Shown in pieces: positions 3,119 to 21,868 of a stretch of 22,030 nt of DNA. Position 1 is the stretch's first letter, and every line of letters begins with the position of its first letter. The DNA lies in contig USGN01000003.1 in assembly GCA_900554255.1 (NCBI GenBank), positions 1 to 22,030 of the forward strand. The letters run 5' to 3'. This stretch comes from an uncultured Collinsella sp. GTDB taxonomy: Bacteria; Actinomycetota; Coriobacteriia; Coriobacteriales; Coriobacteriaceae. Below the pieces are notes generated by a model. That model saw only the letters and a list, made by a program, of their open reading frames with translations, was not told the DNA's origin and did no database searches. The position numbers were made by a program, and so were the translations under genes.

Positions 3119-3192
3119 AGAAAAACTGATTGCAAAGCGACCCCACCGCCTGCGCCCGAGCGCGGTGGCGCGGGCATTTTAGGAGGATGTTC

Positions 3193-4929
3193 ATGGCGAA
3201 CGATAGCAAGACATGGCGGTGCGGAAAGTATGAGCTCAGCTTTGACCGCCCGCGCATCATGGGCGTCCTCAACGTGACGCCCGATTCGTTTAGCGACGGT
3301 GGGGAGCACTTCGACCCGGATGTCGCCATCGAGTACGGCCTGGCGATGCTCGACGCCGGTGCCGACATCATCGACGTGGGCGGCGAGTCCACGCGCCCTG
3401 GTTTTACCCCGGTCAACCCCGACGAGGAGGCTCGCCGCGTGCTGCCCGTGGTGCGCGCGCTGGCCAAAGAGGGCGCTATCGTCTCGATCGACACGCGCCA
3501 CGTGGCGGTTGCCAAGGCGGCCGTGCGCTGCGGCGCCTCGATCGTCAACGACGTGACCGGCTTCACCGACCCCAAGATGGTCGAGTTTGTTAAGACGAGC
3601 ACCTGCGGCGTCATCGTGATGCATGCCGGCGAGGTCGCCGCGCCCACCCGCACGCACGCAACGGTGCAGCTCGATACCTCGGCAGCGGCGTTTGTTGCCG
3701 AGAAGGCGCGCGAGGCGGCTGCCGAGGCCGCGCGTGAGGCCGAGAAGCCGGCTCGCCGCCGTCGCGGCAAGTTGCTGGGCGAGCCTAAGTCGGAGGCCAA
3801 GCTTCCGGGCGGCGTGGTGCAGCCCTCGTTGCCGTTTGGCGAACCGGAGCCCACGTCCGAGTCTGCAACCGAGCTGGGGCAGGAGACGCCGGCCGCCGAG
3901 CAGGCTGCTGCCGCCGAGACCGTTGCGCCCGCGCCCGAGGCCACCGAGGCCGCATCGGAGTCCAATGACCGCCTGGCCGCCATGATGCGCCGCAGCGCCC
4001 GCCGCGAGGAGGCCTACGTGCCCACCTCTCAGCTCCGCCGCTTCACCCTGCCCGATTCGGCGCCCATCATGCGCCGCGTCATGGGCTTTCTGTCCGACCA
4101 GGCCCGCACACTCATCCATGCCGGCGTGTCGCGCGACCGCATCTGCATCGATCCTGGTCCGGGCTTTGGTAAGTCGGCTAACGAGGACATCGTCATCCAG
4201 CGCGAGACCGCCAAGATGGCGTCGCTGGGCTATCCGCTCATGTGCGCCGTGTCGCGCAAGCGCTTTGTGGGCGCCGTCTCGGGCGTGACCGAGGCCGCCG
4301 CGCGCGATGCCGCCACGTTTGGTGTGTGCCTGGGCGCCATCCAGGCCGGCGCCAACATTGTGCGCGTGCACGACGTTGCAGGCTTTGCGCAGTTCCTGAA
4401 CGGCTACTGGGCGGTTGCCAAGCCACAGCCGCGCCGCGCGTTTGTGGCCGTGGGTTCCAACCTGGGGCATCGCTGCGACAACATCCGCGCTGCGCGCGAC
4501 ATGATTGCCGAGATCCCGCTCACCTGCGTGTCCAACTGCTCGCGCATCTACGAGAGCGAGCCTGCCTACGAGACGCGCCAGGACGCGTTTGCCAACGCCG
4601 TCATCGAGATCAAGACCGAGCTTGCGCCGCTGGTGCTGCTCGACGAGCTCATGAAGATCGAGGCCGAGCTGGGGCGCGACCGCTCCAAAAAGGCCAAGGC
4701 CAACGGTCCGCGTACCATCGACCTGGACCTGCTGTGGATGGACGGCGAGACCCACGGCGGCAAAAAGCTGCGCCTGCCGCATCCGCTGATCGGCGAACGC
4801 GACTTTGTGCTGGTGCCGCTCGAGGACCTGATGCACGACCCGGCGCGGTTCTTCCGCTACAACGGTGTCGAGGTCAAGGAGCCCGAGGATCGCGTGGGCC
4901 ATATCGTGGGCGAATTGGGGCGTATGTAG
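3193..4929 (+). CDS. folP-folK: Fused dihydropteroate synthase / HPPK with a large internal insert
   Basis: A 578-residue bifunctional folate-synthesis enzyme. The N-terminal part is dihydropteroate synthase: NVTPDSFSDGG (27-37), DVGGESTRPG (61-70), VND (118-120), VMHAG (142-146), DPGPGFGKS (320-328), SRKRF (354-358) and RVHDV (391-395). The C-terminal part, from about 415, is hydroxymethyldihydropterin pyrophosphokinase: AVGSNLG (419-425), the catalytic GPRTIDLDLL (505-514, with D510 and D512) and LPHPLIGERDFVL (528-540). Between the pterin-side loop after VMHAG and the helix before DPGPGFGK there is an extra segment, about residues 150-288. It is rich in Ala, Glu and Pro, with an Arg cluster (188-191), and probably disordered; ordinary DHPS has only a short loop there. 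AGGAGG at 3181-3186 fits the ATG at 3193 (6-base spacing) rather than the ATG at 3187. The stop abuts the next start. Confidence 0.95.
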   Translation: MANDSKTWRCGKYELSFDRPRIMGVLNVTPDSFSDGGEHFDPDVAIEYGLAMLDAGADIIDVGGESTRPGFTPVNPDEEARRVLPVVRALAKEGAIVSIDTRHVAVAKAAVRCGASIVNDVTGFTDPKMVEFVKTSTCGVIVMHAGEVAAPTRTHATVQLDTSAAAFVAEKAREAAAEAAREAEKPARRRRGKLLGEPKSEAKLPGGVVQPSLPFGEPEPTSESATELGQETPAAEQAAAAETVAPAPEATEAASESNDRLAAMMRRSARREEAYVPTSQLRRFTLPDSAPIMRRVMGFLSDQARTLIHAGVSRDRICIDPGPGFGKSANEDIVIQRETAKMASLGYPLMCAVSRKRFVGAVSGVTEAAARDAATFGVCLGAIQAGANIVRVHDVAGFAQFLNGYWAVAKPQPRRAFVAVGSNLGHRCDNIRAARDMIAEIPLTCVSNCSRIYESEPAYETRQDAFANAVIEIKTELAPLVLLDELMKIEAELGRDRSKKAKANGPRTIDLDLLWMDGETHGGKKLRLPHPLIGERDFVLVPLEDLMHDPARFFRYNGVEVKEPEDRVGHIVGELGRM

Positions 4930-10665: not shown

Positions 10666-11043
10666 ATGAGCAAGACCGTCGTGTCTTCCGATAACGCACC
10701 CGCAGCCATCGGACCGTATTCCCCCGGTATCCAGACCGGCAACATGGTGTTCCTGTCCGGCCAGCTGGGCATCGACCCCACAACTGGCAAGATGCCCAAG
10801 GGCGTCGAGGCCCAGGCCAAGCAGTCCCTTGCTAACGTCGAGGCCCTGCTGACTGCCGCCGGCGCTACGTTTGCCGATGTCGTCAAGACCACGGTCTACC
10901 TGGCCGACATCGCCGACTTCGCTGCCGTGAACGAGATCTACGCTTCCAAGTTCGAGGCTCCGTTCCCCGCGCGCAGCGCTTTCCAGGTTGCCGCCCTTCC
11001 GGCTGGCGGTCTGGTCGAGATCGAGGTCGTCGCCGCTCTCTAA
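10666..11043 (+). CDS. ridA: RidA family enamine/imine deaminase
   Basis: A 125-residue RidA (YjgF/YER057c/UK114) protein. The family hydrolyses reactive enamine/imine intermediates such as 2-aminoacrylate released by PLP enzymes. The signature PARSAFQVAALPAGGLVEIEVVA near the C terminus includes the substrate-binding arginine in ARSAFQV and the conserved glutamate in VEIEVVA. The N terminus AIGPYSPGIQTGNMVFLSGQ is also typical. AAGGAG at 10653-10658 precedes the ATG at 10666. The gene is monocistronic, with its own promoter, leader hairpin and a strong terminator. It is convergent with the purine-locus regulator. Confidence 0.95.
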   Translation: MSKTVVSSDNAPAAIGPYSPGIQTGNMVFLSGQLGIDPTTGKMPKGVEAQAKQSLANVEALLTAAGATFADVVKTTVYLADIADFAAVNEIYASKFEAPFPARSAFQVAALPAGGLVEIEVVAAL

Positions 11044-11155: not shown

Positions 11156-11863
11156 TTAGCCCTCCTTGCGAACTTTTTGCAGGTAGCGGTAGACGCTGGG
11201 CTCCGAGATGCCCAGCGCGGTGGCGGCGCAGGCCACGGCGCCCTTGAGCATGAACACCCCGTTGCCGTTGAGGTGGCGAATGACGTCCACGCGGTCGCCC
11301 TGACCAAGCGACGCTACATCCAGCCCGCGCGCGCTCAGCAACTCGGCAATGCTGCGGTCGATGAGCTCCTGTGTGGACTCCGAAAGGCTTTCGACCTCGA
11401 TAGGGGCGGGCTCCGTGCGCGTCGGCGCCGCGTCGAAGCACGCCATGAGCTGCTGCGCCATGGCGTTGATGGAGCGTACGGTCGAGAGGTCGGTGTTGAC
11501 GCAGAGCATACCGACGATCTCGTCATTCTCGCGGATAAAGTACGTCGCCGACTCCAACGTCTTGCCACCGGCACCGCGGCCCTCGTAGCCCGTAATAAAC
11601 GGCAGGTCGCGATACTTGTCGTCGTGCATGATCTTGAGTGCCAGATCGGTGGCGGGACCGCCGACCTTGCGGCCGCTCACGATGCCGTTGCGAATATCGA
11701 CGATGGCGTGGTCGGGATCTGAGAAATCGTGCAGCACGATTTCGCTGTTCTTACCGAGTATCTGCTCCAGGAAATCGACCATCGGCAAAAAGCGACGTAC
11801 GGTCTCGTTCACGGGCAACTCCTTGGGGTGAAATCGGAAATGTTCATAACAATTTTTTCTCAT
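11156..11863 (-). CDS. YheO/DauR-like transcriptional regulator (PAS-like domain plus HTH)
   Basis: A 235-residue regulator. Residues about 20-130 match the YheO-like PAS family: VDFLEQILGKNSEIVLHD, then IVDIRNGIVSGRKVGGPATDLAL, and ESATYFIRENDEIVGMLCVN. The C-terminal 70 residues form the DauR-type helix-turn-helix, ending in the recognition-helix-like ALGISEPSVYRYLQKVRKEG. Relatives include DauR, which controls D-arginine use, and other amino-acid or nucleobase catabolism regulators. The gene is divergent from the purine permease operon, with 301 bases between starts, so it is the prime candidate for its ligand-responsive regulator. I chose ATG 11863 (MRKNCYEH) for family length; the ribosome binding site GAGGAA is rather far away, and an in-frame upstream start at 11953 is possible. 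Confidence 0.85.
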   Translation of the reverse strand: MRKNCYEHFRFHPKELPVNETVRRFLPMVDFLEQILGKNSEIVLHDFSDPDHAIVDIRNGIVSGRKVGGPATDLALKIMHDDKYRDLPFITGYEGRGAGGKTLESATYFIRENDEIVGMLCVNTDLSTVRSINAMAQQLMACFDAAPTRTEPAPIEVESLSESTQELIDRSIAELLSARGLDVASLGQGDRVDVIRHLNGNGVFMLKGAVACAATALGISEPSVYRYLQKVRKEG

Positions 11864-12006
11864 GGTAACACGCCATTCCTCATCTCGTATATTCGCAGGT
11901 ACATTGCGTAATACAGACGAACGGTAGGAATTTGGCGGTAAACGGTTGACCAAAAGAAAAGTTAGATGCTATTTTGACCGGACACTTTCCTGACCTGCGG
12001 AAATTC

Positions 12007-12164: not shown

Positions 12165-13559
12165 ATGACCCAGGAGACGGTTACGAACGGCACTGAAGCC
12201 CTGTTCACTCGCGAAGGCATGCCTCCCGTTAAGGAAATGATCCCGTGTGCCCTTCAGCACGTACTGGCATCGTTTGCCGGCATCATTACCCCGGCGGTCA
12301 TCATGGCCGGCGTCTACGGCTTTAATAGCCAGCAGAGCACCGACATCATTCAGGTTGCGCTCATTCTTTCGGCAATCGACACGGCCCTTCAGGCCTTCGC
12401 TCCCTTCCGTCGCATCGGCGGCGGCCTGCCCATCGTCATGGGCGTTTCCTTCGCGTTCCTGCCGGCCCTGCAGGCCATGGGTGCCTCGGGCTTTAGCTTT
12501 GGTGCGCTGCTGGGCGGCGAGATCGTCGGTGGCGCCGTCGCGGTCCTCTTTGGTCTGGCCTACAGCAAGATCAAGTGGCTGTTCCCGCCCGTCGTGACCG
12601 GTACGGTCATCTTCTCCATTGGCGTCTCTCTCTATCCCACGGCTGTCAAGTATATGGCCGGCGGTATGGGTACGCCGCTGTGGGGCACCCCGCAGGCCTG
12701 GTGCGTCGCTCTTATCACCTTCGCCGTGGTCTTTGCGCTCGCCAACTTTGGCAAGGGCACGCTCAAGCTGGGCTCCGTATTCTTTGGCATGATCGTTGGC
12801 ATGATTGTCTCCATCCCCTTTGGCATGATCGACTTCTCCAGCGTCGCCACCGCCCAGGTCTTCGCCCTTCCCAAGCTCATGCCCTATGCGCTCGAGTTTG
12901 ATCCCGAGGTCTGCATTACCCTCGCCGTCGTGTTCCCCATGGTTGCCATCCAGGTTATCGGCGACGTCTCTGCCGCCTGCCTGGGCTCCATCGACCGTAT
13001 GCCCACCGAGCGCGAGCTCTCCGGCGCTATCGTGTCCCAGGGCCTCACCTCTATGGTCGGCGGCCTGCTGGGCGGTCTTCCCACCAGCGCCCTTGGCCAG
13101 AACGTGGGCATCATCTGCTCCAACAAGGTCGTCAACAAGTGGGTCTTTGTGATCATCGCGGCCGTCTTTGCCATCGCCGGCCTGTTCCCGCAGCTCTCTG
13201 CCGTCCTTTCCGCTATCCCGCAGCCCGTCATCGGCGGCGCGACCGTCGGCGTCTTTGGCACCATCACCATGAACGGCGTGCGCATGTTCACCCGCGAGGG
13301 CCTTACGCAGCGCACTACCACCATCGTCGGTACCTCCGTCGTCTTTGGCCTGGGTATCTGGATGGCCAGCGGTTGCCTTGCCGGCGAGGGTATGCCCGCT
13401 TGGGTGTCCACCGTCATCGGCTCCAATGCCGTAACCCCCACCGCCATCATGGCCATTGTCCTTAACCTGATCCTTCCGCAGACGCCGGTCGTGGCTCAGC
13501 ACATCGATGCTGCCAAGGACGCTGCCGTGGATCTGGTCTTGCCCGAGAGCAAGAAGTAA
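12165..13559 (+). CDS. NCS2 family purine (xanthine/urate-type) permease
   Basis: A 464-residue polytopic membrane transporter of the nucleobase-cation symporter-2 family, importing a purine substrate with protons or sodium. Family marks are QHVLASFAG in TM1 (H32), the TM8 region with IGDVSA (265-270) and the signature QNVGIICSNK (312-321). Two usually conserved binding-site positions differ: the TM8 glutamate is Q263, and the threonine of the QNxGxxxxT signature is N320. Xanthine or urate is inferred from the downstream SsnA, YgfK and xanthine dehydrogenase genes, not from the sequence. A GGTGG lies just before the ATG at 12165. It is the first gene of the operon and divergent from the regulator. 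A 195-base hairpin-containing gap separates it from ssnA. Confidence 0.9.
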   Translation: MTQETVTNGTEALFTREGMPPVKEMIPCALQHVLASFAGIITPAVIMAGVYGFNSQQSTDIIQVALILSAIDTALQAFAPFRRIGGGLPIVMGVSFAFLPALQAMGASGFSFGALLGGEIVGGAVAVLFGLAYSKIKWLFPPVVTGTVIFSIGVSLYPTAVKYMAGGMGTPLWGTPQAWCVALITFAVVFALANFGKGTLKLGSVFFGMIVGMIVSIPFGMIDFSSVATAQVFALPKLMPYALEFDPEVCITLAVVFPMVAIQVIGDVSAACLGSIDRMPTERELSGAIVSQGLTSMVGGLLGGLPTSALGQNVGIICSNKVVNKWVFVIIAAVFAIAGLFPQLSAVLSAIPQPVIGGATVGVFGTITMNGVRMFTREGLTQRTTTIVGTSVVFGLGIWMASGCLAGEGMPAWVSTVIGSNAVTPTAIMAIVLNLILPQTPVVAQHIDAAKDAAVDLVLPESKK

Positions 13560-13754: not shown

Positions 13755-15110
13755 ATGCTTCTGGTCGCTAACGGTTCCGTCTTTACCCGCAACGCTCAGA
13801 CCCCGTTTATTCCAAACGGTGCGGTCGCCATTGACGGAGATACGATCGTCGAAGTGGGCCCCGAGCGCGAGCTCAAGGCCAAGTACCCGGATGCCGAGTA
13901 CGTCGACGCCCAGGGCAACCTCATCATGCCCGGACTTATCAACTGCCACACCCACATCTACTCGGGTCTGGCCCGCGGCCTCGCCATTAAGGGATGCAAC
14001 CCCACCAACTTCCTGGAGAATCTTGAGCAGCAGTGGTGGAAGATCGACGACAACCTGACGCTCGACGGCACCAAGGCCAGCGCCTATGCCACGATTCTGG
14101 ATTCCATCCGCGACGGCGTCACCACGATCTTCGATCACCACGCGAGCTTCTGCGAGATTCCGGGCAGCCTCTTTACCATTAAGGACGCCGCTCAGGAGCT
14201 GGGCATGCGTTCGTGCCTGTGCTACGAGGTTTCCGACCGCCGTGGCCAGGAAAAGTGCGATCAGGCTATTGCCGAGAACGCCGAGTTTGCCCAGTGGGCC
14301 GCCAAGGAGCGTCGCGATAACGACAACCACATGATCGCCGCCATGTTTGGCGGACATGCTACCTTTACGCTTTCGGACGAGACCATGGATAAGATGGCCG
14401 AGGCCAACAACGGTCTGACCGGCTTCCACATCCATGTGTGCGAGGGCATGAACGACGTGTGGGATTCCCGCCTCAACCGCGGTGGTATCAGCCCCGTCGA
14501 GCGCCTGCTGCAGCACAACCTGCTGGGTCCCGACACCATGCTCGGCCACTGCATCCACGTGACGCCTGCCGAGATGGATATCGTCAAGGAGTCCGGCACC
14601 TGGCTGGTTAACAACCCCGAATCCAATATGGGCAACGCCGTGGGCTGCGCCCCCGTGCTCGAGTTCTTCCGCCGCGGCATCCCCGTGTGCATGGGCACCG
14701 ACGCCTACACCCACGATATGCTCGAGAGCCTTAAGGTCTTCCTGATCATTCAGCGCCACAACGCCGCCATGCCCAACGTGGGCTGGTGCGAGGCCATGAC
14801 GATGCTGTTCGAGAACAACGCCAAGATGGCGAGCAAGTACTTCGATCGCAAGCTCGGTGTGCTCGAGGCCGGCGCTGCCGCCGACGTTATCGTTATGGAC
14901 TACAAGCCCTTTACGCCGCTGAGCGAGGAGAACATCGACGGTCACATGCTCTTTGGCATGATGGGCAAAAACTGCCGCACCACCATCATCAACGGCCGCG
15001 TCCTGTACAAGGATCGCGAGTTCGTTGGCATTGATGAGGACAAGATCAACGCGTGGACCATGGCCGAGTCCAAGAAGCTCTGGAGCACGCTCAACGATCG
15101 CGCCTACTAA
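13755..15110 (+). CDS. ssnA: SsnA-type amidohydrolase of anaerobic purine degradation
   Basis: A 451-residue amidohydrolase-superfamily enzyme matching SsnA. The metal site is visible: NCHTHIYSG (HxH near residues 64-66), the histidine in GFHIHVCEG, the histidines in GHCIH, and the aspartate in MGTDAYTHD near 315. In E. coli ssnA lies in the ygfK-ssnA-ygfM-xdhD cluster. Work on anaerobic urate breakdown, recalled from memory, gives it a hydrolytic role on a purine-derived ring. Older annotation says only putative aminohydrolase. I chose the ATG at 13755 because AAGGGAG (13743-13749) is correctly spaced; an in-frame ATG at 13737 has none. It is co-directional with ygfK, 148 bases downstream. 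Confidence 0.9.
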   Translation: MLLVANGSVFTRNAQTPFIPNGAVAIDGDTIVEVGPERELKAKYPDAEYVDAQGNLIMPGLINCHTHIYSGLARGLAIKGCNPTNFLENLEQQWWKIDDNLTLDGTKASAYATILDSIRDGVTTIFDHHASFCEIPGSLFTIKDAAQELGMRSCLCYEVSDRRGQEKCDQAIAENAEFAQWAAKERRDNDNHMIAAMFGGHATFTLSDETMDKMAEANNGLTGFHIHVCEGMNDVWDSRLNRGGISPVERLLQHNLLGPDTMLGHCIHVTPAEMDIVKESGTWLVNNPESNMGNAVGCAPVLEFFRRGIPVCMGTDAYTHDMLESLKVFLIIQRHNAAMPNVGWCEAMTMLFENNAKMASKYFDRKLGVLEAGAAADVIVMDYKPFTPLSEENIDGHMLFGMMGKNCRTTIINGRVLYKDREFVGIDEDKINAWTMAESKKLWSTLNDRAY

Positions 15111-15258: not shown

Positions 15259-18258
15259 ATGAGCGACATCATGAGGCCGATCCCGTTTTCGCAGCTGATG
15301 AACTGGATCATCGAGGAGAATAAGACCCAGGGCGCCGTCTTTGGCGTGCGCAAGATGGTCACGACCAACCAGGAGGGCGCGCTTCCCATTTTTGACGAGC
15401 GCATCGAGACTCCGTTTGGCCCGGCCGCCGGCCCCAACACGCAGCTGGCCCAGAACATCGTGGCATCCTACGTGGCCGGTTCCCGCTTCTTTGAGCTCAA
15501 GACCGTTCAGGTTATGGACGGCGAGGAGCTCTCCAAGTGTGTGAACAAGCCCTGCATCGTGGCGCAGGACGAGTGCTACAACTGCGAGTGGTCGACCGAG
15601 CTCGAGGTTCCGCAGGCCTTTGCCGAGTACGTGAAGGCATGGTTTGCCTGCCACCTGATCGCTCGCGAGTACGGCCTGGGCAGCCCGGATGGTTTTGTCT
15701 TCAACATGTCCGTGGGTTATGACCTGGAAGGCATCAAGAGCCCCAAGGTCGACGCCTACATTGAGGGCATGAAGGACGCCAGCGGCTCCGAGGTTTGGAA
15801 CGAGTGCCGCACGTGGGCGCTCGCTAACCTGGACAAGTTTGAGCATGTCGACGCCGCGTTTGTCGAGTCCATCCCGGCACGCGTCTCCAACTCCATCACC
15901 GAGTCCACCCTGCACGGCTGCCCGCCGGCGGAGATCGAGCGCATCGCGACCTATCTGATCACCGAGAAGGGCCTCAACACCTACATCAAGTGCAACCCCA
16001 CGCTGCTGGGCTATGAGTTTGCCCGCCAGCGTCTGAACGAGCTGGGCTTTGACTACATCGTCTTCGATGACACGCACTTCCGCGAGGACCTGCAGTGGGC
16101 CGATGCCGTGCCTATGTTCGAGCGCCTGATTGCCCTGTGCGCCGAGCGCGGCCTGGAGTTTGGCGTCAAGCTGACCAACACGTTCCCCGTCGACGTGACG
16201 AGGAACGAGCTGCCCTCCACCGAGATGTACATGTCCGGCCGTTCGCTGTTCTCGCTGACCATCGAGGCTGCCCGCCGCATTACCGAGCAGTTCGATGGCA
16301 AGCTGCGCATCAGCTACTCCGGCGGTGCCACGGTCTACAACATCCGCGCCCTGTACGATGCCGGCATTTGGCCCGTCACCCTGGCGACCGACGTGCTCAA
16401 GCCCGGTGGCTACGAGCGCTTTAGCCAGATGGCCGGCGAGTTTACCGACCTGGATGGCAAGCCGTTCGCGGGCGTCTCTCTCGACGCCGTGACCGCGATC
16501 CAGACCGACTCGCTCACCAACCCGCTCTACAAGAAGCCGCTGCGCCCGCTGCCCGACCGCAAGGTCGCCGGCAAGAGTCCGCTTTCCGACTGCTTTACCA
16601 CGCCGTGCCGTACGAGCTGCCCCATCCAGCAGGATATTCCCGCCTATCTGGCGGCTGTTGACGAGGGCCGCTACGAGGACGCACTCAACATCATCATCGA
16701 GCGCAACGCCCTGCCGTTCATTACCGGCACCATCTGCCCGCATCCCTGCGGCCGTGCCTGCGAGCGTGCGTTCTACGAGCCCGAGGGCGCCCAGATTCGC
16801 GCCAGCAAGCTCAAGGCCGCCCGCGAGGCCATGACCGCCGTGCTGCCCAAGCTACGCGCCCAGGCCATCGCAAGCGACGGCGAGCGCAACGTTGCCGTTA
16901 TCGGCGGCGGCCCGGCCGGTCTGGCGACGGCGTTCTTCCTGACTCGTGCCGGCGTGCCCGTCACCATCTTTGAGGCCCGCGATTCGCTCGGCGGCGTGGT
17001 CCGTCACGTCATTCCTGAGTTCCGCATTGCGAGCGACGATATCTCCCACGATGCCGAGCTCTGCTTGGCCTTTGGCGCCAAGGTGCAGCTCAACGCCCGC
17101 GTGGAGTCCATCGACGATCTCAAGGCCCAGGGCTTTACCGACGTGGTCGTGGCCACCGGTGCCTGGATGCCTGGCTCTGCAGGCCTGGGCGAGGGTGCCG
17201 AGCTTGACGTGCTGGAGTTCCTCGAGGCCGCCAAGAAGGGCGAGAAGCTCGAGCTGGGCGAGGACGTCGTAGTCATTGGCGCCGGCAACACCGCCATGGA
17301 CGCGGCCCGCGTGGCTAAGCGCCTGGCTGGTGTGAAGAACGTGCGCCTGGTGTATCGCCGCACCAAGAAGCAGATGCCCGCCGACGAGGAGGAGCTCGAT
17401 CTTGCTCTTGCCGACGGCGTTGAGTTCTGCGAGTTGCTGGCGCCTAAGGCGCTCAACGGCGCTGTGCTGACCTGCGATGTTATGGAGCTTGGCGAGCCGG
17501 ATGCAAGCGGCCGTCGTAGCCCCGTCGCTACGGGCGAGACCGTCGAGCTTCCCGCCACCACGGTGATCTGCGCCGTGGGCGAGGGCATCGATGCCAGCCT
17601 GTACGATGCCGCGGGCGTCGAGCACGACCGTCGCGGCCGCCTTGCCGCCACCTCCACCGGCGTTGAGGGCGTCTGGGCTGCGGGCGACTGCCGCCGCGGT
17701 CCTGCCACCGTGGTCGAGGCCATCGCCGACGCCGCCGAGGTCGCCCGTGCCATCGCCGGCGTGGACTTTAACAAGTACGCCGACTGCAACGAGCAGGCCG
17801 GCCGCGAGGACACCTGCTACGAGCGCAAGGGGTCGCTGTGCCGCGACAAGCGCAACTGCACCAAGACCCGCTGCCTGGGCTGCGGCTCGGTGTGCGAGGT
17901 CTGCTGCGACGTGTGCCCCAACCGCGCCAACGTGGCAATTAAGGTGCCGGGCCTGGCCAAGCATCAGGTCGTCCATGTCGACGGCATGTGCAACGAGTGC
18001 GGTAACTGTGCCGTGTTCTGCCCCTATCAGGAGGGTCGTCCCTACAAGGACAAGCTCACCCTGTTCTGGAGCGAGGAGGACATGGAGAACTCCGAGAACG
18101 AGGGCTTCCTGGCCGTGGGCGAGGACCACTTTAAGGTCCGCGTCGCCGGCACGGTCCGCACCGTCTCGGTCGATGCCGTCAACACCGGTCTTCCCGAGGC
18201 CGTCCGCCTGACCATCAGGGCCGTGCGCGACAACTATTCGTACCTTCTTAAGAAATAG
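15259..18258 (+). CDS. ygfK: YgfK-type Fe-S flavoprotein oxidoreductase (putative selenate reductase subunit)
   Basis: A 999-residue multidomain oxidoreductase, close to E. coli YgfK in length. Residues 1 to about 430 resemble a dihydroorotate/dihydropyrimidine dehydrogenase-like barrel. From about 447, CRTSCPIQQDIPAYL and CPHPCGRACE form the Fe-S part of a GltD-like module. Then come an FAD fold (GGGPAGLATAFFL, near 552) and a second dinucleotide fold (GAGNTAMDAARVA, near 674). The C terminus carries two cysteine clusters, CLGCGSVCEVCCDVCP and CNECGNCAVFCP, near 873-925. It probably moves electrons between NAD(P)H, flavin and Fe-S centres for a redox step on purines; the name selenate reductase is historical. 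I chose the ATG at 15259 because GAGGAG (15247-15252) is 6 bases upstream; the longer frame from 15136 overlaps the intercistronic hairpins. It sits 11 bases before the ferredoxin gene. Confidence 0.93.
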   Translation: MSDIMRPIPFSQLMNWIIEENKTQGAVFGVRKMVTTNQEGALPIFDERIETPFGPAAGPNTQLAQNIVASYVAGSRFFELKTVQVMDGEELSKCVNKPCIVAQDECYNCEWSTELEVPQAFAEYVKAWFACHLIAREYGLGSPDGFVFNMSVGYDLEGIKSPKVDAYIEGMKDASGSEVWNECRTWALANLDKFEHVDAAFVESIPARVSNSITESTLHGCPPAEIERIATYLITEKGLNTYIKCNPTLLGYEFARQRLNELGFDYIVFDDTHFREDLQWADAVPMFERLIALCAERGLEFGVKLTNTFPVDVTRNELPSTEMYMSGRSLFSLTIEAARRITEQFDGKLRISYSGGATVYNIRALYDAGIWPVTLATDVLKPGGYERFSQMAGEFTDLDGKPFAGVSLDAVTAIQTDSLTNPLYKKPLRPLPDRKVAGKSPLSDCFTTPCRTSCPIQQDIPAYLAAVDEGRYEDALNIIIERNALPFITGTICPHPCGRACERAFYEPEGAQIRASKLKAAREAMTAVLPKLRAQAIASDGERNVAVIGGGPAGLATAFFLTRAGVPVTIFEARDSLGGVVRHVIPEFRIASDDISHDAELCLAFGAKVQLNARVESIDDLKAQGFTDVVVATGAWMPGSAGLGEGAELDVLEFLEAAKKGEKLELGEDVVVIGAGNTAMDAARVAKRLAGVKNVRLVYRRTKKQMPADEEELDLALADGVEFCELLAPKALNGAVLTCDVMELGEPDASGRRSPVATGETVELPATTVICAVGEGIDASLYDAAGVEHDRRGRLAATSTGVEGVWAAGDCRRGPATVVEAIADAAEVARAIAGVDFNKYADCNEQAGREDTCYERKGSLCRDKRNCTKTRCLGCGSVCEVCCDVCPNRANVAIKVPGLAKHQVVHVDGMCNECGNCAVFCPYQEGRPYKDKLTLFWSEEDMENSENEGFLAVGEDHFKVRVAGTVRTVSVDAVNTGLPEAVRLTIRAVRDNYSYLLKK

Positions 18259-18269
18259 GCGAGTCTCTT

Positions 18270-18749
18270 ATGGCCAAATCCATTCAACATAATGTGGCCT
18301 ACGTTGCCTGCGGAAGCGGTTGCGCCTCCGCAGGCGGCGACGCCCGCTGCAGCGAAGGCTGCATTGGCTGTGGCGCCTGCGTCACGGCTTGCCCCCACGG
18401 TGCCATCTCACTGGTCGACGGCGTTGCCCGCGTGGACCGCTCCAAGTGCACGGGCTGCGGCCTGTGCGGCATGGCGTGCCCGCAGCGCGTGATTGCCTTC
18501 GTTCCCGGCTACCAGAACATCCTGGTGCGCTGTAACAACACCGACAAGGGCGCCATTGCGCGCAAGATCTGCGACACGAGCTGCATCGGTTGCGGTATGT
18601 GCGCCAAAAAGTGCCCTGCCGGCGCTATCCGCATCGAGGACAACTGCGCCCATATCGACGGCGTGGACTGCCTGTCGTGCGGCATGTGCGCCGTCGTCTG
18701 CCCTCATGGCGCCATCCACGACCGCACCGGCATCGCCGCTGGCGTGTAG
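18270..18749 (+). CDS. Ferredoxin-like protein with four [4Fe-4S] motifs (RnfB-like C-terminal type)
   Basis: A 159-residue soluble protein made almost entirely of Fe-S motifs: CIGCGACVTACP (near 31), CTGCGLCGMACP (near 60), CIGCGMCAKKCP (near 105) and CLSCGMCAVVCP (near 134). The spacer NNTDKGAIARKIC resembles the link between clusters in RnfB. There is no N-terminal membrane anchor, so it is not RnfB itself. Four clusters in one small protein imply an electron wire. It lies 11 bases after ygfK and 12 before the xanthine dehydrogenase gene. In E. coli the FAD subunit gene ygfM lies between ssnA and xdhD instead. It probably carries electrons between XDH and YgfK. The start is ATG 18270; the ribosome binding site is weak, which suggests translational coupling. 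Confidence 0.9.
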   Translation: MAKSIQHNVAYVACGSGCASAGGDARCSEGCIGCGACVTACPHGAISLVDGVARVDRSKCTGCGLCGMACPQRVIAFVPGYQNILVRCNNTDKGAIARKICDTSCIGCGMCAKKCPAGAIRIEDNCAHIDGVDCLSCGMCAVVCPHGAIHDRTGIAAGV

Positions 18750-18761
18750 AAGGGAATCACC

Positions 18762-21539
18762 ATGGCACAGGAATTCACTTTTACCGTTAACGGCGTCGAG
18801 CGCACGACGACTCAGAACAAGCCGCTGCTGCGCTATCTGCGCGACGACCTGCACATTCACTCCGCCAAGGACGGCTGCTCCGAGGGCGCCTGCGGTACCT
18901 GCACCATCCATGTGGACGGTGCGGCCGTCAAGGCGTGCGTGCTGACCACCGCTCTTGCCGCCGGCCGCAACATCGTGACCGTCGAGGGCCTGCCCGAGGA
19001 CGTGCGCGAGGCCTTTGTGTACGCCTTTGGCGCCGTGGGCGCCGTGCAGTGCGGTTTTTGCATCCCCGGCATGGTCATGGCGGGCGCGGCGCTCATCGCC
19101 GAGGATCCCGAGCCCACCGAGGAGCAGATCAAGTACGCCATCCGCGGCAACGTCTGCCGCTGCACCGGCTACAAAAAGATTATCGAGGGCATCTCGCTGG
19201 CCGCTGCGGTGCTCCGTGGCGAAAAGCAGATCGACGAGGACCTGGAGCGCGGCGATGACTACGGCGTGGGCAAGCGCGCCTTCCGTATCGACGTGCGCAA
19301 GAAGGTGCTCGGTGAGGGCAAGTACCCCGATGATATCGACGAGCTTGATCAGCCGGGCCTGACCTATGCCAGCGCCGTGCGCTCCAAGTATCCGCGCGCC
19401 CGTGTGCTCTCCATCGACACCTCCAAGGCCGAGGCCCTGCCCGGTGTGGTGGGCATCCTGCGCGCCGAGGACGTGCCGGTCAACCAGGTCGGCCACCTTA
19501 TCCAGGACTGGGACGTCATGATCGCCCAGGGCGATATCACCCGCTGCGTGGGTGACGCCATCGTGTTGGTGGTCGCCGAGGACGAGGCGACGCTCGAGAA
19601 GGCCAAGAAGCTCGTCAAGATCGATTATGAGCCTCTGGAGCCCGTGCGCAACATCGCCGAGGCCAGGGCCGCCGACGCCCCGCGCCTGCATGACAGCTTC
19701 TTTGCCTTCGGCAACACGGTGGAGCTCAAGGACAACGTGTGCCAGAGCCGCCACGTGACGCGCGGCGACGCCGCCAAGGCGCTGGCCGAAAGCGCGTTCA
19801 CCGTGACGCAGCGCTTTACCACGCCCTTTACCGAGCATGCCTTCTTGGAGCCCGAGTGCGCCGTCGCCTTCCCGTACAAGAACGGCGTCAAGGTGCAGTC
19901 GACCGACCAGGGCGCCTACGATACGCGCAAAGAGTGTGCCCACATGTTTGGCTGGGATAGCGAGCCCGAGCGCGTGGTCGTCGAGACCATGCTCGTGGGT
20001 GGCGGCTTTGGCGGCAAGGAGGACGTGTCCATCCAGCACCTTGCCGCGCTCGCCGCGTATAAGTTCCAACGCCCTGTGAAGTGCAAGCTCACGCGCGCCG
20101 AGTCGCTCGCGTTCCATCCCAAGCGCCATGCCATGGACGGTACCTTTACGCTGGGTTGCGACGCCGAGGGCAACTTTACCGGTCTGGACTGCGAGATCAA
20201 CTTTGATACCGGCGCCTACGCATCGCTGTGCGGTCCGGTGCTCGAGCGCGCCTGTACGCATGCCGTCGGCCCCTACAAGTACCAGAATACCGACATTCGC
20301 GGCTTTGGCTACTACACCAACAACCCGCCCGCCGGCGCGTACCGCGGCTTTGGCGTTTGCCAGTCCGAGTTTGCGCTCGAGAGCCTGATCGACCTGCTGG
20401 CCGAGAAGGTCGGCCTGGATCCGTGGGAGATCCGCTACCGTAACGCCATCGAGCCGGGCGAGGTTTTGCCCAACGGCCAGATTGCCGACTGCTCCACGGC
20501 GCTTAAGGAGACACTGCTCGAGGTCAAGGATGCCTACTACGCGCATCCCGGACACGCCGGTATCGCCTGCGCCATGAAGAACGCCGGTGTGGGCGTGGGC
20601 CTGCCCGATGCCGGCCGCTGCAAGATTCGCGTCGAGAACGGCGTGGCCGTGGTCTATGCCGCCACGTCCGACATCGGCCAGGGCTGCAACACGGTCTTTT
20701 TGCAGGACGTTGCCGAGGCCTGCGGTCTGCCGCTGAGCTGCATTGCCAACGGCGAGTGCTCCACCGAGAACGCTCCCGACTCCGGCACTACGTCTGGCTC
20801 GCGTCAGACGGTCGTGACCGGCGAGGCCGTGCGCGGCGCCGCCTTCCTACTGCGCGATGCTATGGTTGGCGTCGAGGCCGGCAAGCCCGCGCCCGATGCT
20901 CCCGTGAGCGCACATGGCGACGGCGTCAAGATCGAGTACGACGACGGCCGCGCCTATCAGCTTCGCACGCAGGAGCTCGTCGCCGGCCAGGGTATGCATC
21001 CTCAGGATCCTGCGGCAGCTATCAAGGCACTCGAGGGATGCGAGTTTGGCTACGTATATCTGGAGCCGACCGACAAACTGGGTGCCGACGTGCCCAACCC
21101 TAAGAGCCACATCTGCTACGGCTTTGCCACGCATGTGGTCATTCTTGATGATGACGGCCGCGTGAGCGAGGTCTATGCCGCGCACGATTCCGGCAAGGTG
21201 GTCAATCCCATCTCCATCCAGGGTCAGATCGAAGGCGGCGTGCTCATGGGTATGGGCTATGCGCTTACCGAGGACTGGCCGCTCAAGGACTGCGTGCCCC
21301 AGGCAAGGTACGGTACGCTCGGGTTGTTCCGTGCGCCCGAGATTCCGGATATCCACGCCATTTACGTGGAGAAGGACGAGCTGCTGCCCGTGGCATACGG
21401 CGGCAAGGGCATCGGCGAGATCGCCACGATCCCCACGGCGCCCGCCGTGCAGAATGCCTACCGCGCGTTTGACGGCAAACTGCGTCCAGATCTGCCCATG
21501 GTGGATACGCCGTACAGCCGCGCCCGTCACCGCGGGTAG
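18762..21539 (+). CDS. xdhD: Selenium-type xanthine dehydrogenase, fused 2Fe-2S and molybdopterin domains
   Basis: A 925-residue molybdenum hydroxylase resembling E. coli XdhD and the family annotated as selenium-dependent xanthine dehydrogenase. Residues 1-155 hold two [2Fe-2S] centres: CSEGACGTC plus a later cysteine (near 38-65), and CGFC (near 96-99) with CRC (near 131-133). From about 170 the molybdopterin-binding part follows, with VGGGFGGKED near 413, AYRGFG near 526 and the catalytic glutamate in GKGIGEI near 885. No FAD domain is present, either fused or as a neighbour. It would oxidise xanthine or related purines, or run in reverse. The reading frame has no internal TGA, so selenium, if used, would be a labile cofactor, not selenocysteine. 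AAGGGAA precedes the ATG at 18762. It is the last gene of the operon, followed by a terminator. Confidence 0.92.
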   Translation: MAQEFTFTVNGVERTTTQNKPLLRYLRDDLHIHSAKDGCSEGACGTCTIHVDGAAVKACVLTTALAAGRNIVTVEGLPEDVREAFVYAFGAVGAVQCGFCIPGMVMAGAALIAEDPEPTEEQIKYAIRGNVCRCTGYKKIIEGISLAAAVLRGEKQIDEDLERGDDYGVGKRAFRIDVRKKVLGEGKYPDDIDELDQPGLTYASAVRSKYPRARVLSIDTSKAEALPGVVGILRAEDVPVNQVGHLIQDWDVMIAQGDITRCVGDAIVLVVAEDEATLEKAKKLVKIDYEPLEPVRNIAEARAADAPRLHDSFFAFGNTVELKDNVCQSRHVTRGDAAKALAESAFTVTQRFTTPFTEHAFLEPECAVAFPYKNGVKVQSTDQGAYDTRKECAHMFGWDSEPERVVVETMLVGGGFGGKEDVSIQHLAALAAYKFQRPVKCKLTRAESLAFHPKRHAMDGTFTLGCDAEGNFTGLDCEINFDTGAYASLCGPVLERACTHAVGPYKYQNTDIRGFGYYTNNPPAGAYRGFGVCQSEFALESLIDLLAEKVGLDPWEIRYRNAIEPGEVLPNGQIADCSTALKETLLEVKDAYYAHPGHAGIACAMKNAGVGVGLPDAGRCKIRVENGVAVVYAATSDIGQGCNTVFLQDVAEACGLPLSCIANGECSTENAPDSGTTSGSRQTVVTGEAVRGAAFLLRDAMVGVEAGKPAPDAPVSAHGDGVKIEYDDGRAYQLRTQELVAGQGMHPQDPAAAIKALEGCEFGYVYLEPTDKLGADVPNPKSHICYGFATHVVILDDDGRVSEVYAAHDSGKVVNPISIQGQIEGGVLMGMGYALTEDWPLKDCVPQARYGTLGLFRAPEIPDIHAIYVEKDELLPVAYGGKGIGEIATIPTAPAVQNAYRAFDGKLRPDLPMVDTPYSRARHRG

Positions 21540-21649: not shown

Positions 21650-21766
21650 GGAAACTGCGTCCCGGATTTGGCGCTCAGAACGGGACACGCTTTCCGGATG
21701 GGATGCTTGGCGGAAACTACGGCCCAGTTTTTGGCTCCAGAACGGGATGCATTTTCCGGAACGGTC
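21650..21766. repeat. Two imperfect tandem direct repeats, period 62
   Basis: Copy A (about 21650-21704) and copy B (about 21712-21766) share GGAAACT, then CGtCCCgg or CGgCCCag, then the core CAGAACGGGA, and end in TTTCCGGA. The offset is 62 bases at the left end. Identity is roughly three quarters by eye. Each copy also contains a short internal complement, most clearly CGTCCCG with CGGGAC in copy A. The copies look like a decayed dispersed repeat, with no open frame of note. Confidence 0.65.
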
Positions 21767-21812: not shown

Positions 21813-21868
21813 TTACGTTATAGCTAGCTATATTATAGGAAGGTATAATATAGCTAGCTATAACGTAA
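21813..21868. promoter_or_regulatory. Perfect palindrome with 25-bp arms, promoter/operator of the ATPase gene
   Basis: Arms 21813-21837 and 21844-21868 are perfect reverse complements around the 6-base loop GGAAGG. Each arm contains TATAGCTAGCTATA, itself a perfect 14-bp palindrome, so two identical dyads are nested in a larger one. A promoter TTGTCG (21805-21810) with TATATT (21829-21834) at 18-base spacing would run into the left arm, and TATAAT appears at 21844-21849. The element ends 14 bases before the ATPase start codon, so binding by an autoregulator is likely, and mRNA folding could also affect translation. Confidence 0.7.

Follow-up and report, generated by a model that had tools for sequence, protein, structure and literature searches.

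A molybdenum hydroxylase without an adjoining flavin subunit lies next to an RnfB-like ferredoxin in the uric-acid operon of a Collinsella gut bacterium

We analyzed a 22,030-nucleotide stretch of contig USGN01000003.1 from an uncultured Collinsella sp. (assembly GCA_900554255.1), hereafter the window, and in it an operon that encodes a molybdenum hydroxylase of the xanthine dehydrogenase (XDH) type together with a small iron-sulfur (Fe-S) protein. Three intact genes on the forward strand form the core of the operon. The first, ygfK (15259..18258), encodes a 999-residue yanthine reductase that matches TIGR03315 over its full length (1286.1 bits; cut-off, 835.3). It is followed, after 11 bases (18259..18269), by the gene of a 159-residue RnfB-like ferredoxin with four [4Fe-4S] motifs (18270..18749), identified by its nearest solved chains, which are RnfB, and by a tail signature. 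After 12 further bases, in frame (18750..18761), xdh (18762..21539) encodes a 925-residue XdhAC-like hydroxylase, in which two [2Fe-2S] clusters are fused to the molybdenum (Mo) part and a flavin adenine dinucleotide (FAD) domain is lacking. Upstream, on the same strand, are ssnA (13755..15110), encoding an aminohydrolase (NF005540, 633.5 bits; cut-off, 444), and a gene for an NCS2 purine permease of the xanthine/urate type (12165..13559), which scores 340.9 bits with TIGR03173, below the cut-off of 414.15, and above the cut-off with PF00860. A YheO-type PAS/HTH regulator (11156..11953, reverse strand; PF08348 and PF13309) is divergent from the permease here and in most of 20 loci compared. 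No FAD-subunit gene was found in the window operon; the ferredoxin gene stands 12 bases upstream of xdh instead. The initial annotation had already drawn attention to this absence and to the tightly spaced ferredoxin, and both are borne out by the sequence, as is its statement that E. coli keeps ygfM between ssnA and xdhD.

The window, from a Collinsella aerofaciens-like gut bacterium, thus contains SsnA, YgfK, and a Mo enzyme together, the first half of a reductive uric-acid pathway already described in print. Statements about whole genomes rest here on the genomes of relatives and not on the window's own assembly. In the nearest C. aerofaciens genome (G001), whose five operon proteins are 97.5 to 99.8% identical to those of the window, the operon contig (C8) also carries, starting about 13 kb downstream, ygeX, ygeY, ygeW, a mocA-like gene (TIGR03310, 98.7 bits, below the cut-off of 186.45), hyuA, yqeC, and yqeB. 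Among 39 relatives, YgfK scores above the cut-off in 20, all of which have ygeX, and ygeX is present in 21 overall. The uric-acid cluster of E. coli and C. difficile, as described in PMC12507026, shares with the window SsnA, YgfK (in E. coli), a fused Fe-S/Mo hydroxylase, and a purine permease, and with G001 also YgeX, YgeY, YgeW, and HyuA; it differs in that an enzyme of family TIGR03311 here replaces XdhD-YgfM and the RnfB-like ferredoxin is added. Three smaller observations concern the same genes. In G001, the ygeX half has a further, divergent YheO-type regulator with 33% identity to that of the window (L171, 12380-19530, contig C8). The carbamate kinase gene yqeA was not seen in the ygeX half of G001 and is present in G036 (L173) and G009 (L174). 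Finally, ygfK of another Collinsella genome (G018; L045, 7065-10336) is split into two open reading frames (ORFs) with intact neighbors, reflecting either a sequencing error or real decay.

For the chemistry of the pathway we rely, by analogy, on the account in PMC12507026. There, E. coli XdhD-YgfM reduces urate with NADH to yanthine, and not to xanthine, and YgfK together with SsnA reduces yanthine with NAD(P)H and opens the ring with no need for an XDH, SsnA being assigned the opening of the reduced ring. The suggestion in the initial annotation that urate reduction is coupled to xanthine oxidation finds no support in these reactions. The window YgfK is 46% identical to E. coli YgfK and has a GltD/NfnB-like FAD/NAD(P) domain. 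It was rightly said to have its own FAD fold and two C-terminal clusters, to which two further Cys motifs in the middle of the protein have to be added (PF14691 region, Cys445/450/454 and Cys493/497/501), as well as the additional flavin mononucleotide (FMN) site modelled in print for E. coli YgfK, the N-terminal half of which is an FMN barrel (PMC12507026).

The Mo enzyme of the window is not XdhD, as it had been called at first. It scores 1128.8 bits with TIGR03311 (curated cut-off, 830.45) and 225.5 bits with the XdhD family TIGR03313, for which the cut-off is 1101.9, and its identity to E. coli XdhD is 26 to 29%, depending on the alignment. It contains two [2Fe-2S] motifs (Cys39/44/47/59 and Cys97/100/132/134) and matches the Pfam Mo domains; no FAD domain was found among its Pfam matches. 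The solved chains that score best against it, 1dgj and 1sij, come from Desulfovibrio aldehyde oxidoreductases, in which two [2Fe-2S] clusters are likewise fused to the Mo part. These aldehyde oxidoreductases have no FAD subunit; the Desulfovibrio enzyme acts on aldehydes with a flavodoxin as its partner, and we know of no polyferredoxin encoded with it. Because the enzyme belongs to TIGR03311, is only 26 to 29% identical to XdhD, and has aldehyde oxidoreductases as its nearest solved chains, we reject the idea that ygfM has disappeared from what was once an XdhD operon. Glu606 of E. coli XdhD, the residue proposed in PMC12507026, aligns to a gap in the window enzyme, in a part where the alignment is loose. 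NCBI names the family "(selenium-dependent) xanthine dehydrogenase", and genes of a selenium context occur in G001: homologues of yqeB and yqeC near the back half of the pathway, and selA and selB at a second Mo locus.

Lack of an adjoining FAD subunit is the habit of this family. We scanned 80 named loci, the best 80 of a longer list in which near relatives are over-represented, with a profile built from nine FAD-subunit proteins (score limit, 40); 69 of these loci extend for at least 1 kb on both sides of the enzyme gene and 11 for less than 1 kb on one side. An FAD-subunit ORF lies anywhere in the retrieved stretch in 16 of the 80 and is the next gene to XDH in one (L145), where it stands behind an apparent Mo/FeS/FAD trio. 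An adjoining FAD subunit is therefore rare in TIGR03311. In G001, the sole match to the FAD-subunit family PF00941 lies on a different contig from the operon. Among seven assemblies checked for Mo hydroxylases, G610, G603, G057 (Vagococcus acidifermentans), and G063 hold one each, the TIGR03311 enzyme, and no PF00941 protein was found in any of these four, of which G610 is the one known to be a single contig. Because the enzyme is the single Mo hydroxylase of these four assemblies, it appears to work without an FAD subunit. We also considered, as alternative partners, the FAD genes that stand beside second TIGR03311-like paralogues in G559, G546, and L145; the FAD gene of G559 is the last of a separate Mo/FeS/FAD trio. 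Second paralogues of this kind (L328, L331, and L145) follow such a trio in G559 and, as far as partial annotation shows, also in G546 and L145, which suggests a second set of purine enzymes. The XDH of C. acidurici is described with an FAD subunit (PMC3519856).

The ferredoxin has four C-x2-C-x2-C-x3-C motifs, and in 20 aligned relatives the 16 cluster Cys (27/31/37/41, 60/63/66/70, 105/108/111/115, and 134/137/140/144) and three further Cys are all invariant. Its nearest solved relatives are the RnfB chains 9eri_B (2.9e−33) and 7zc6_B, and its four motifs align end to end with the C-terminal motifs of RnfB of the Rnf complex. It differs from RnfB in its C-terminal tail and in length (159 residues versus about 260 to 330), and PF04060, the N-terminal domain of RnfB, is not among its Pfam matches. 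Its scores with the RnfB-type families are well below their cut-offs (NF005504, 118.5 versus 437; NF005503, 102.5 versus 252). All 17 XDH-adjoining copies examined, two-cluster forms included, end in the signature CGMCAxxCPxxxIxDxxGI, a motif that was formulated after the sequences had been inspected. Of 616 homologues found, 120 were listed, and 65 of these carry the signature; among the 55 without it are all nine of RnfB length (one of which, P0087, is a narrow miss), fragments, and near misses. In the ferredoxin tree 24 of 41 inner branches are open, and because the tree is mostly unresolved we make no claim as to whether two or four clusters came first.

The ferredoxin is a stand-alone, RnfB-like family that tracks the TIGR03311 enzyme. 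We followed it with profile A2, the 20 rows of which are partly copies known to adjoin XDH and partly database proteins of unplaced genomic position. Of 296 Coriobacteriia, 84 have the XDH at an E value of 1e−150 or better (in 80 of them with a match above the curated cut-off) and 42 have the four-cluster ferredoxin at 1e−40 or better. Each of the 42 copies immediately precedes XDH in the same orientation, with gaps of 20 to 44 bases from match to match. Of the other 42 XDH-bearing genomes, 27 have a two-cluster ferredoxin in the same position, and two could not be judged because of contig ends. The XDH scored above the cut-off in 21 of 391 Clostridia and has a ferredoxin beside it in two of them. 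Among the A2 matches listed for the Clostridia, which extend to about 5e−43, only these two, both stand-alone and adjoining XDH, are below 1e−60; both are rows of A2, and their scores are high by construction. Two of the remaining listed matches are in frames shorter than 259 residues, both RnfB-like and without the tail motif. No XDH was found beside either frame, one of which adjoins a gene that we take to be RnfD-like and the other at a contig end. Across the 80 named loci, the ferredoxin adjoins XDH in 12, which belong to two phyla, upstream in eight and downstream in four; the Clostridia-type loci have it upstream in L091, L092, L098, and L101 and downstream in L111, L114, L118, and L119. 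In these 12 loci the ferredoxin is a neighbor of XDH every time and a neighbor of ygfK four times, each time in Coriobacteriia. In L111 and L118 the XDH stands between the ferredoxin and ygfK, and no ygfK was found within the retrieved stretch at L092, L114, and L119. Outside Coriobacteriia, then, the ferredoxin tracks XDH and not YgfK.

We propose, with a probability of about 0.6, that the RnfB-like ferredoxin is the dedicated electron carrier of the FAD-less Mo enzyme and that it most likely feeds urate reduction. The four-cluster Fe-S protein would probably take the place of the flavin subunit in this role. It would dock on the XDH, accept low-potential electrons from the ferredoxin pool of the cell, and relay them via both [2Fe-2S] clusters to the Mo site, the most likely reaction there being reduction of urate to yanthine (2,8-dioxopurine); YgfK would then reduce yanthine with NAD(P)H, and SsnA would open the ring. 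The same pathway step is proposed for E. coli XdhD-YgfM, which differs in its use of an FAD subunit and NADH. E. coli also has a small Fe-S electron-transport protein near its urate cluster, YgfS, which is weakly similar to the window ferredoxin (31.2% over 128 aligned residues) and does not adjoin xdhD. In C. sporogenes, XdhAC, fused A and C by its name, is the urate reductase of the same pathway (Nat Microbiol 2025, as reported in PMC12990295), a step shown with an artificial donor. Urate in the human gut is committed to anaerobic breakdown by a Mo enzyme, and that commentary describes the enzyme's natural electron donor, which may be an accessory protein, as unknown. The ferredoxin described here occurs in a common human gut species and is a conserved, specific candidate for this donor. 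The commentary's account of XdhAC mentions no ferredoxin, and we compare the two systems by description. Earlier work already connects C. aerofaciens with urate clusters and records a Fer4 gene in its cluster (mSystems 2025, PMC12542679); that study reports the gene also from Anaerobutyricum hallii and a Blautia and ascribes iron storage to it, a function in place of which our evidence points to electron transfer. We read the operon as a variant within a known pathway, in which a urate enzyme without FAD would be served by an RnfB-like ferredoxin of its own. Our literature search found no paper combining xanthine dehydrogenase, RnfB, and uric acid.

Several observations weigh against this proposal. 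The ferredoxin is dispensable to the TIGR03311 family, because no adjoining copy is seen in 68 of the 80 named loci, in 19 of the 21 Clostridia genomes whose XDH exceeds the cut-off, and upstream of XDH in 13 of the 84 XDH-bearing Coriobacteriia (nine of these 13 were also scanned downstream, with none found). That C. sporogenes XdhAC belongs to TIGR03311 is an assumption based on what it is called and on the genes around it. Within Coriobacteriia, moreover, the end of ygfK lies beside XDH or its ferredoxin in 46 of 66 loci, a count made with a strict motif that misses some and on a set that repeats a few genomes. Because the order ygfK-ferredoxin-XDH is common there, adjacency in this class does not by itself tell whether the ferredoxin is the partner of YgfK or of XDH. 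The initial annotation had joined all three proteins into one purine redox complex, in which the YgfK flavin feeds the Mo site through the ferredoxin. The gaps of 11 and 12 bases in the window agree with such a complex, as do the FAD domain and the four Fe-S motifs of YgfK, and it would deliver NAD(P)H electrons to an enzyme without FAD. We nevertheless regard it as improbable, given that the ferredoxin goes with XDH and not with ygfK outside Coriobacteriia, that E. coli YgfK, with SsnA, has a substrate of its own in yanthine, and that G610 and G028 have XDH and YgfK together without the ferredoxin. Of the wire drawn by the annotation, the tie between ferredoxin and XDH is supported, and the inclusion of YgfK is not. 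In a variant for Coriobacteriia that we rate lower still, the three proteins would form one machine in which a single flavin, fed by NAD(P)H, powers both reductions, from urate through yanthine to dihydroyanthine; electrons might bifurcate at the NfnB-like FAD domain of YgfK, with the ferredoxin as the low-potential branch. An insertion at about residues 700 to 760 of the window XDH was considered as a dock for the ferredoxin. We dropped this idea because in four genomes that show no ferredoxin (G526, G607, G490, and G502) the profile match of the XDH likewise stops at about position 680. None of 23 full-length, above-cut-off XDH frames (853 to 890 residues) of the Clostridia sample is a ferredoxin-XDH fusion; this check was made on the Clostridia frames and not on each frame of the Coriobacteriia, where frames reach 1,248 residues.

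Further contrary evidence comes from FAD subunits encoded elsewhere in the genome. A PF00941 protein is present somewhere in 80 of the 84 XDH-bearing Coriobacteriia versus 21 of the 212 without XDH, and because of this difference the TIGR03311 enzyme and PF00941 proteins are linked in some way in the class. The homologue of ygfM that the initial annotation had named as evidence against its scheme is, taken literally, found in these relatives. In the C. aerofaciens-type genomes G001, G581, and G601, however, each of which has two Mo hydroxylases, the PF00941 protein adjoins the second one and not the TIGR03311 enzyme. In G001, the FAD-subunit gene overlaps that of a 943-residue Mo/Fe-S enzyme near selA and selB (contig C61; L076, 4802-8547). 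It is very improbable that the window XDH borrows the FAD subunit of this second locus while the ferredoxin serves something else. The genome-wide co-occurrence would favor such borrowing, and the position of the PF00941 protein beside its own Mo subunit speaks against it, as do the four Coriobacteriia that have the XDH and no PF00941 match (G526, G603, G610, and G688, the XDH of the last being below the cut-off).

The second Mo hydroxylase bears also on the direction of catalysis. In C. aerofaciens it is nearer to E. coli XdhD (34 to 36%) than the TIGR03311 enzyme is, with 36.4% identity for the C61 enzyme versus 26.1% for that of the window. It could be the urate reductase, acting with its FAD subunit, and the TIGR03311 enzyme would then oxidize xanthine or hypoxanthine to urate with the ferredoxin as acceptor. 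The NCBI family name and the widespread PF00941 proteins would fit this division of labor. In addition, an XdhD of the E. coli type (51 to 52% identical) shares a cluster with the TIGR03311 enzyme at L098, L099, and L101, and because of this the latter may oxidize xanthine at these three loci. We take this explanation seriously and still consider it unlikely for the window. The TIGR03311 enzyme is the sole Mo hydroxylase found in G610, G603, G057, and G063. Of these, G610, whose XDH is 72.5% identical to that of the window, has the whole set (ssnA, ygfK, ygeX, ygeY, ygeW, yqeA, and hyuA), and locus L156 of G063 has ssnA, ygfK, hyuA, ygeY, ygeW, and yqeA. The TIGR03311 enzyme is, moreover, the one located within the ygfK/ssnA cluster, and the C61 pair is the one located by selA and selB.

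Other electron routes in related clusters point, by analogy, the same way as the proposed role of the ferredoxin. The cluster of Vagococcus acidifermentans (G057), where neither a PF00941 match nor a ferredoxin gene beside XDH was found, encodes NfnAB-like proteins and a pyruvate:ferredoxin oxidoreductase (TIGR02176, 1904.1 bits). E. faecalis is described as having similar genes plus a flavodoxin near the fused protein EF2570, which we know by this description (PMC2432076). For C. difficile XdhD, which lacks YgfM, reduced ferredoxin has been suggested as the donor (PMC12507026).

The remaining features of the window lie outside the core of the operon. Directly before the divergent regulator is a gene for a Rid-family deaminase (10666-11040; TIGR00004 and PF01042). 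YgeX-type ammonia-lyases produce 2-aminoacrylate, which Rid proteins remove. E. faecalis likewise has an L-PSP gene, EF2574, near EF2570 (PMC2432076). A single long ORF at 3130-4929 joins dihydropteroate synthase (TIGR01496) and folK (TIGR01498) domains through a long linker. Downstream of xdh, a 49-bp sequence occurs twice as a direct repeat (21650-21760). Next to it, at 21813-21868, two 25-bp arms form a perfect inverted repeat around a loop of 6 bases. The inverted repeat stands just before an ORF that is truncated at the end of the window; the relative of this ORF in G001 (L033, 12892-14280) encodes an ATPase_2/DUF234 protein.

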